Part shown: in pieces, positions 40,407-41,967 of the stretch
Numbering within the stretch: the stretch's first letter is position 1
How the letters are laid out: each line of letters begins with the position of its first letter
DNA from: Euzebya pacifica
GTDB lineage: Bacteria > Actinomycetota > Nitriliruptoria > Euzebyales > Euzebyaceae
Reading direction: 5' to 3'
Assembly: GCF_003344865.1 (NCBI RefSeq)
Contig: NZ_CP031165.1
Location: forward strand, 930,001 to 994,000
DNA length: 64,000 bases
The notes under the pieces: generated by a model
Told to the model about the DNA's origin: nothing
What the model saw: only the letters and a program-made list of their open reading frames with translations
Database searches by the model: none
Position numbers and translations under genes: made by a program

Positions 40407-40486
40407 TCGTCCGCCAAGCAGGTGCCCGTCGTCCTCAGGGACGGCGGGCACTTCGCCGTTCCGGCCGATGTGTCCGCGCGGCTGCC

Positions 40487-40522
40487 GTCCCGGCGACCGT
40501 CCCGGCGACCGTCCCGGCGGCC
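40487..40522. repeat. 12-bp tandem repeat
   Basis: Two identical GTCCCGGCGACC units (40487-40498, 40499-40510) and one variant GTCCCGGCGGCC (40511-40522) directly precede the left palindrome module of the DUF559 gene. Confidence 0.75.
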
Positions 40523-40528
40523 GGAGTT

Positions 40529-40635
40529 GTGCAGCTCGGCCGGCGGGCTGGCTGACCTGCGCACATCCCCGGCAGGCTCGTGCAGGTCGGCCGGGTGACC
40601 GGCTGACCTGCACATCGCCGGGGGAGGGGGAGGGG
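40529..40635 (+). repeat. Left repeat module: two palindromes and a G-run
   Basis: Palindrome a (40529-40564) and palindrome b (40580-40613) are separated by 15 bp. In b the arms GTGCAGGTCGGCCGG and CCGGCTGACCTGCAC pair at all positions but one G-T. A G-run of the form GGGGGAGGGGGAGGGG follows (40620-40635). A second module of the same composition, order and orientation lies on the other side of the gene at 41858-41967. This accounts for most of the 298-bp gap after the giant protein gene; nothing else is seen there. Confidence 0.7.
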
Positions 40636-40704
40636 CCACACACGCGCCTCGGGTTGTCCACGAGCGGGGCCGAGGTCGTCGACGGGTGACCCCAGCCGGA
40701 GGAC

Positions 40705-41811
40705 ATGGTGGTGGACATGGACGTCCCACAGGCCGCCGACGGCGGAACCCCGGACCCCGCACGGGTCGATCCGGCGCTCCTTGATCGGCTGGCTGCACGG
40801 CAGGCCGGCCACCTCGCGGTGTGGCAGCTCGTCATGCTCGGCGTCGCACGTTCCTCGGTCACCGAGCTGGTCAGCCGGCGGGGCTGGACGCGTGTCCATC
40901 GCGGCGTCCTCCGCGTGCTGGGCGGACGGGCGGACGACATGGGGCAGCTGTGGGCGGGCCTGCTCTGCGTGGCTGGCGTCGGCGGTCCCGAACGGGCCAC
41001 GTCCCGCCTGCTGGAGGGAGGGGATCGGGTCGCAGCCCTCGCAGCGGCGGTGTCCGACGTGGCGGTCGTGACCGGATTCTCGGCGGGGTGGCTGATGGGT
41101 ATTCGGGACAACCCGCCTGCGGTTCCCCAGCTGCTCGTCGAGCGGGAGACCCAGGTCCGCGGCCGCCCCGTGCGGGTGGTCCGCAGCCGACGAGCGTCCG
41201 ACGACCTCCGCTGGATCGACGGCGTGCCGTGTGCCCTCCCTCACCGGGTCCTGTGGGACATGGCCTGGATCGCCCGCCGAACGGGACGGGCCGAGGTCAA
41301 CGTGGCTGATGCGGCCGTTCACCTGGACCGGCTCCGGGTGCTGTCGATGGACGAGTTCCTCGGCGCCGTGGCGGATCCCCTCTCCTTCGGGCTTCCGCGG
41401 CGCGTCCCCCGGGCGATGGTCCGGGCGGCCGACCGAGTGCGGCCAGGGTTCTCCCATTCCGAGACCGAGGCCCGTGGACGCGCGATCATCCGGGAAGTCC
41501 TTGCCGAGCTCGGCCTGGACGCAACCACACGTCCCTACCTCCTGCGCGACGGGGCGGGCGCGATGGTGGGCGAGATGGACGTGGCGGTCATCGACGTGCA
41601 GTGGGGGCTGGAGGTGGACGGTCCGCACCACGACGCACCGTCGGTGGCCCGGCGAGACCGCCGACGCGACGAGCAGGTGCGGGGTGTGGACGGGTGGGAG
41701 GTCACCCGGTATCACCACACCCTCGTGGAGGAGGAGGCGACGTTCCGGGGCCGCGTCCGGACCGATGCGCTGGACATGCTCACCCGTCGCGGCTGGTCGC
41801 GGGCCGCGTAG
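40705..41811 (+). CDS. AbiEi-like winged-helix / DUF559 (Vsr-fold) protein
   Basis: A 368-residue protein with two parts. Residues about 20-110 resemble the winged-helix domain of AbiEi-type antitoxins and related regulators (WQLVMLGVARSSVTELVSRR, then GWTRVHRGVLRVLG). Residues about 255-365 look like DUF559, a Vsr-like endonuclease fold: FSHSETEARGRAIIREVL, an Asp in MVGEMDVAVIDVQWGLEVDG, then RRDRRRDEQVRGVDGWEVTRY. The E...D...ExD pattern suggests an intact nuclease site. No AbiEii toxin gene is adjacent, so an ordinary toxin-antitoxin pair is unlikely. The start may be ATG 40705 or GTG 40708/40711, as GGAGG at 40698 is too close to the first. Both flanks carry matching repeat modules, suggesting a self-associated or mobile unit. 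Confidence 0.72.
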   Translation: MVVDMDVPQAADGGTPDPARVDPALLDRLAARQAGHLAVWQLVMLGVARSSVTELVSRRGWTRVHRGVLRVLGGRADDMGQLWAGLLCVAGVGGPERATSRLLEGGDRVAALAAAVSDVAVVTGFSAGWLMGIRDNPPAVPQLLVERETQVRGRPVRVVRSRRASDDLRWIDGVPCALPHRVLWDMAWIARRTGRAEVNVADAAVHLDRLRVLSMDEFLGAVADPLSFGLPRRVPRAMVRAADRVRPGFSHSETEARGRAIIREVLAELGLDATTRPYLLRDGAGAMVGEMDVAVIDVQWGLEVDGPHHDAPSVARRDRRRDEQVRGVDGWEVTRYHHTLVEEEATFRGRVRTDALDMLTRRGWSRAA

Positions 41812-41857
41812 TCGACCTGGAGCTCGTCGTCGAGGCCCCCGCCGCGCCGACCGAGAT

Positions 41858-41967
41858 GTGCACTTCAGCCGATGGGCCGGTCGAGCTGCACCACAGCTCG
41901 GCCAGGCTGGTCAGGTCAACCGACGGGCCGGCCAACCTGCACAACTCGCTGGAGGAGGGGGAGGGGG
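41858..41967 (+). repeat. Right repeat module: two palindromes and a G-run
   Basis: Palindrome c (41858-41891) and palindrome d (41909-41942), each 34 bp, are separated by 17 bp and followed by GGAGGAGGGGGAGGGGG (41951-41967). Copies c and d each match palindrome b at about 24 of 34 bases, conserving the GTGCA/CTGCAC ends and the CCG-GGCCGG middle, but have lost arm symmetry. A second G-run lies at 41975-41987. The rest of the gap to 42012 holds nothing else. Confidence 0.65.

Follow-up and report, generated by a model that had tools for sequence, protein, structure and literature searches.

The window that we analysed is a stretch of 64,000 nucleotides from Euzebya pacifica, corresponding to C1:930001-994000 of a genome (designated G000) of 6.37 Mb in two contigs, the second of which measures 0.57 Mb. 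At positions 40705..41811 of its forward strand, the window carries an open reading frame for a 368-residue AbiEi-like/EDxHD (DUF559-type) protein, orthologues of which occupy this locus in three further genomes of the genus. The next gene downstream encodes a hydrolase and is convergent. The DUF559-type gene is bracketed by two modules, and the sequence confirmed the places and the unchanged order that the original prediction had assigned to them. Each module is composed of two imperfect 36-bp palindromes separated by a 15-bp spacer, with a period of 51 bp, and this 36-15-36 frame also fits the other copies described below. In the left module, which scored E=3.7e-21 when the genome was scanned, palindrome a occupies 40528..40563 and palindrome b, 15 bp after it, 40579..40614; the right module (E=6.8e-19) begins 45 bp past the stop codon, with palindrome a at 41857..41892 and, again after 15 bp, palindrome b at 41908..41943, all four being on the forward strand. 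The half-site frame, as seen in left palindrome a, is TGTGCAGCTCGGCCG-N6-CGGCCGAGCTGCACA. The arms of both left copies had been described as nearly perfect, which holds for palindrome b (one G-T pair in the arms, plus loop and end mismatches) but not for palindrome a, which has four arm mismatches in addition to the loop. Left palindrome b is the only near-perfect one; the other three contain 5-8 mismatched pairs of 18 with loops included (7-8 in the two on the right), and the modules are 63-65% alike when measured against the left reference copy.

A run of G residues (GGGGGAGGGGG; 40620..40636, forward strand) had been counted as a further component of the module. Because such a run is found near only 3 of the 26 modules of the genome, we place it outside the module. 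Immediately 5′ of the left module is a short tandem repeat of a 12-bp unit (CGGCGACCGTCC, 40479-40523), and between the left module and the gene lies a DnaA-box-like motif, TTGTCCACG (40654..40662, forward strand). Upstream of the DUF559 genes of this class, TTRTCCACA is present exactly at 10 of 23 loci and with at most one mismatch at 20 of 23, compared with 0.7% and 3% of control windows, respectively, the 23 loci being not fully independent because orthologues are included among them. No enrichment of TTRTCCACA was seen in the phylum-wide set of DUF559 genes.

The winged helix and the Vsr-fold domain that had been proposed for the protein were both borne out by an AlphaFold2 model built with nine homologues (mean pLDDT 85.5, pTM 0.64). 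In the predicted structure, residues 17-246 (40753..41442, forward strand), comprising a winged helix and a C-terminal domain, resemble the AbiEi antitoxin of S. agalactiae (6y8q; Z 11.1, 185 residues aligned, rmsd 4.4) and Rv2827c (1zel; Z 8.1), and PADLOC calls the N-terminal part AbiEi with E=2e-11. The second domain extends over residues 250-365 (41452..41799, forward strand), of which residues 256-360 resemble the catalytic domain of I-Bth0305I, an EDxHD homing endonuclease (3r3p; Z 11.5, 95 residues aligned), and a similar span matches Vsr (1cw0; Z 9.8). Residues E255, E290, D292, E303, D305, H308, H309, D318 and D322 are invariant in the nine homologues. The DUF559/MTES_1575 Pfam match of the protein itself is below the curated cut-off (E=0.038), whereas homologues of the same architecture pass it. 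The protein thus models as an AbiEi antitoxin-like part fused to a nuclease of the EDxHD/Vsr type. Euzebyaceae and other Nitriliruptoria contain homologues, and a scan of contigs with the alignment returned six loci only. AbiEi is known to bind two 23-bp inverted repeats in its own promoter, and Rv2827c binds four (PMC7319586); by analogy, these proteins provide a good precedent for the recognition of paired inverted half-sites.

Searching the genome at the DNA level revealed many further copies. A gap-free alignment of 22 modules was converted into a profile based on sequence only, and a scan of the 6.37-Mb genome with this profile identified 26 chromosomal module places at E<1e-9, the next-best match having E=0.006; no module was detected on the 0.57-Mb second contig. 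A search with a degenerate 15-mer allowing two mismatches was swamped by chance matches (577 and 581 matches versus 538 and 484 for controls). The 36-15-36 geometry is present in all 22 modules inspected, and copies from different places show only about 63% likeness to one another. All of the modules are extragenic and reside in gaps between genes. When 22 gaps were typed with genes called by a simple codon-usage script rather than by standard annotation, 11 were convergent, 11 tandem and none divergent, an outcome with a chance of about 0.002 if a quarter were expected to be divergent. The congeneric genome G002 likewise gave 0 of 27 for divergent gaps, a count that is not independent of the first because most module positions are common to both genomes. 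Since no module lies between divergent genes, the modules are not ordinary promoter operators. Intrinsic terminators were also rejected, as there is no T-run in the modules inspected for one. At one place (C1:37714-41194 of G000), two modules surround several genes, one of them transporter-ATPase-like, and this arrangement is kept with both modules in G002.

One could envision that the palindromes fold into hairpins, in RNA or in single-stranded DNA. In the module alignment, however, the arms pair in 80.0% of cells compared with 79.5% in shuffled alignments, and the covariation score was matched or exceeded by 84 of 500 shuffles. The arms vary independently, and we did not encounter a hairpin kept by compensatory changes; with no covariation between the arms, an RNA or single-strand hairpin was rejected. 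What is conserved is the half-site TGTGCAGCTCGGCCG, repeated four times at fixed spacing, together with the invariant 51-bp period. At orthologous positions of G000 and G002, the arms are 77% identical as compared with 50% for the loops and 45% for the spacers, the flanks being mostly 80-92% identical; the likeness of orthologous modules (68%) barely exceeds that of non-orthologous ones (63%), with the geometry intact. Together, these figures imply that the half-sites and their spacing are under constraint or, alternatively, are re-homogenised.

The gene and its modules were compared with those of three congeneric genomes (G001, G002 and G003). Their orthologues are 77% (G002), 46-47% (G001) and 43% identical to the window protein and are found at the same locus with the same hydrolase neighbour, the assignment in G003 being based on the terminal part of the adjacent gene. 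The G002 orthologue has a module on each side. The G001 orthologue has a palindrome pair upstream and one palindrome downstream, of a diverged type (CGATGTGCAGATCGGCCAC) that is itself dispersed in G001, and the other G001 copies examined adjoin genes that are not orthologous to those at the G000 and G002 modules. Because the gene is syntenic even in distant congeners and the G001 copies are elsewhere, it is the gene locus that is fixed, and the dispersed copies turn over. Comparison of G000 and G002 gives modest signs of such dynamics. At one shared site, G000 carries five modules in tandem (C1:4623684-4624499) and G002 a single one; one module is cleanly absent from its site in G002. Two further gaps that hold a module in G002 (L163, L176) contain in G000 (L225, L230) about 1 kb of extra, apparently coding DNA and no module. 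Among the modules compared between G000 and G002, there was no target duplication, excision product or pair of identical young copies.

We asked whether the palindrome is missing from the rest of the genome and from other DUF559 loci. It is not: besides the 26 dispersed copies, other DUF559 genes have flanking repeats of their own. Further DUF559-type genes in related genomes each have a different repeat, which in most cases flanks both sides of the gene. In a scan of gene boundaries in these genomes, the eight DUF559 genes present came first to eighth among 63 genes for repeats common to both flanks, with scores of 27-122 versus 21 or less in 55 control genes. The best flank-to-flank alignment at random sites had a mean score of 18.1 and a 99th percentile of 33, and 13 of 25 DUF559-type loci scored at least 33. 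Phylum-wide, 20 of 57 DUF559 (PF18741) genes scored above the 99th percentile obtained with mismatched flank pairs, fewer than one being expected to do so (p=9e-8), though a few of these genes, L326 among them, resemble chance coding similarity; about two thirds of the genes in this sample showed no flank sharing. Most of the shared segments are imperfect palindromes, usually located a few bases from the stop codon and some 40-80 bp before the start. Most of the families that were searched in their own genomes are dispersed, according to counts taken by hand from listings: about 30 places in G003, 25-30 and 5 for two families in G001, 14 and 15 for two in G002, and 11, 13 and 7 in G171, G149 and G096, with pairs of a 72-bp period in G135. 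In the same kind of search, the families of L122 and L126 matched at their own gene only, as did that of L329 at strong E-values. The genome of the window has a third, short DUF559-type open frame (C1:2673527-2673877), which has four repeat copies, downstream only. The original idea of a tie between protein and palindrome, like that of RAYT proteins to REP sequences, is strongly supported by the genome-wide dispersal and by the other DUF559 genes, bracketed by their own, often dispersed repeats; the alternative, that the modules form the ends of a small mobile unit, fared less well, as will be seen below.

REP/REPIN-RAYT systems (REPtrons) consist of extragenic palindromes, often paired and dispersed by dozens, each family being associated with a single gene and located on its flanks; RAYT genes are inherited vertically, and several gene-repeat pairs may reside in one genome (PMC3116915, PMC3733652). 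The system described here has the same features: the gene has its cognate palindromes on its flanks, with further copies dispersed outside genes, it is vertically inherited, and several gene-repeat pairs occur per genome. It differs in that the protein combines AbiEi with an EDxHD/Vsr nuclease instead of being a Y1/HUH transposase, in that the arms lack covariation, unlike REPIN hairpins, in which compensatory changes are common, and in the lack of a GTAG tag. PF01797 (Y1 transposase) has no match in the genome, although control genomes do match. With neither a Y1 transposase nor hairpin covariation, the system is not RAYT or REPIN. Type IV antitoxins of the AbiEi/Rv2827c kind share with our protein the AbiEi fold of the N-terminal 230 residues and paired inverted repeats just upstream, but here there is an extra nuclease domain, and the repeats are also located downstream and dispersed. 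An AbiE toxin-antitoxin operon of type IV was rejected, given that AbiEii is not adjacent: the sole genome match to PF08843 is at C1:1723524, about 753 kb from the gene. I-Bth0305I and Vsr resemble the C-terminal domain in fold and in conserved acidic and histidine residues; unlike theirs, the gene here is free-standing rather than intronic, has whole repeat modules on its flanks, and has no adjacent methylase gene.

The palindrome is dispersed and many relatives of the gene in the phylum have different scattered palindromes of their own, so the locus looks like an undescribed partnership between a nuclease and a repeat. We therefore favour, with slightly better than even confidence, the interpretation of gene and palindromes as partners in a REP/RAYT-like system built on a different, unrelated nuclease. 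Recognition of the module by the protein is likely, judging from the overall pattern. The AbiEi-like part would bind double-stranded DNA as paired dimers, occupying all four half-sites of a module, and the upstream pair would probably repress the gene's own promoter, in the manner of AbiEi proteins with paired inverted repeats. The C-terminal EDxHD/Vsr-type domain might then nick or cut the DNA at the module or close to it, and in repairing the break the cell could copy modules to new extragenic places or multiply them in tandem. By analogy, the protein may mobilise the modules, its nuclease part promoting their copying in the way proposed for RAYTs and REPs. The gene would be a fixed master locus that stays between two modules, with protein and repeat diverging together in each lineage.

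The main rival views the modules as conserved binding sites with a purely regulatory or structural role. The protein could bind its own modules for autoregulation and the dispersed ones for a chromosomal role such as insulation or termination at gene ends, a network without mobility in which the nuclease would be secondary. At orthologous positions, half-sites and the 51-bp period are kept whereas loops and spacers drift, as retained binding without mobility would have it; arms without covariation are expected of independent protein half-sites, and AbiEi proteins do bind paired inverted repeats (PMC7319586). We nevertheless consider this rather unlikely because divergent gaps are devoid of modules (0/22 in G000, 0/27 in G002), module positions are not common with G001, and the nuclease residues are invariant. 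Alternatively, the gene and both modules might move as one piece, like a small insertion sequence, the solo modules being remnants. Full modules on both sides of the gene in two species and the frequency of solo modules fit with such a unit, which had been suggested originally. We do not favour it and regard it as improbable, given that in four congeneric genomes the gene occupies one syntenic locus, next to the same hydrolase gene, at a protein identity as low as 43% (range 43-77%), that no repeat family surrounds a second gene copy in the genomes checked, and that the repeats diverge, left and right modules having the limited likeness to the left reference copy given above.

Two further explanations seem more remote. 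The nuclease might serve in defence or restriction, attacking foreign DNA that carries the palindrome, or might be a selfish nuclease whose sites mark self. Anti-phage proteins, Hhe and ProA among them, contain DUF559/MTES_1575 domains, and the PADLOC label points the same way, but a chromosome with 26 sites of its own, no methylase gene adjoining the gene and an AbiEii (the cognate toxin) encoded once in the genome and away from this gene make a defensive role very improbable. Finally, terminators or ordinary repeats could lie beside the gene by chance, the modules being extragenic and near gene ends. We find this hardly credible in view of the top eight ranks held by DUF559 genes in the boundary scan, the same bracketing even though the repeat differs from gene to gene, and modules that have neither a T-run nor covarying arms.

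Returning to the REP/RAYT-like partnership, one may ask how far it extends. We tentatively propose, at somewhat less than even confidence, a class spanning the phylum Actinomycetota in which each extragenic palindrome would be recognised and spread by an AbiEi-EDxHD nuclease of its own rather than by an HUH transposase, in co-diverging pairs of which a genome may hold several. Dispersed palindromes are widespread in bacteria. AbiEi/DUF559 genes form a common, uncharacterised family that is here linked one-to-one to repeat families in many genomes. The partnership would supply a candidate enzyme for the orphan palindromes of Actinomycetota and a testable role for many DUF559 genes that resemble orphan type IV antitoxins, and it suggests a second origin of a REP/RAYT kind of partnership, from homing-type nucleases. 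For some families of dispersed palindromes, the CGTC REPs being one example, no dedicated enzyme is known (PMC3733652). Our literature search, which covered mainly freely available published papers, found no paper tying DUF559 or AbiEi proteins to dispersed palindromes.

Palindrome pairs were also observed in two genomes of another genus (L191-L193 in G012 and G008). There, 44-bp palindromes with nearly perfect arms are paired across a spacer of about 27 bp (GGTGTGGGCGGTTCGGCCGG...) and have the core TCGGCCGG in common.
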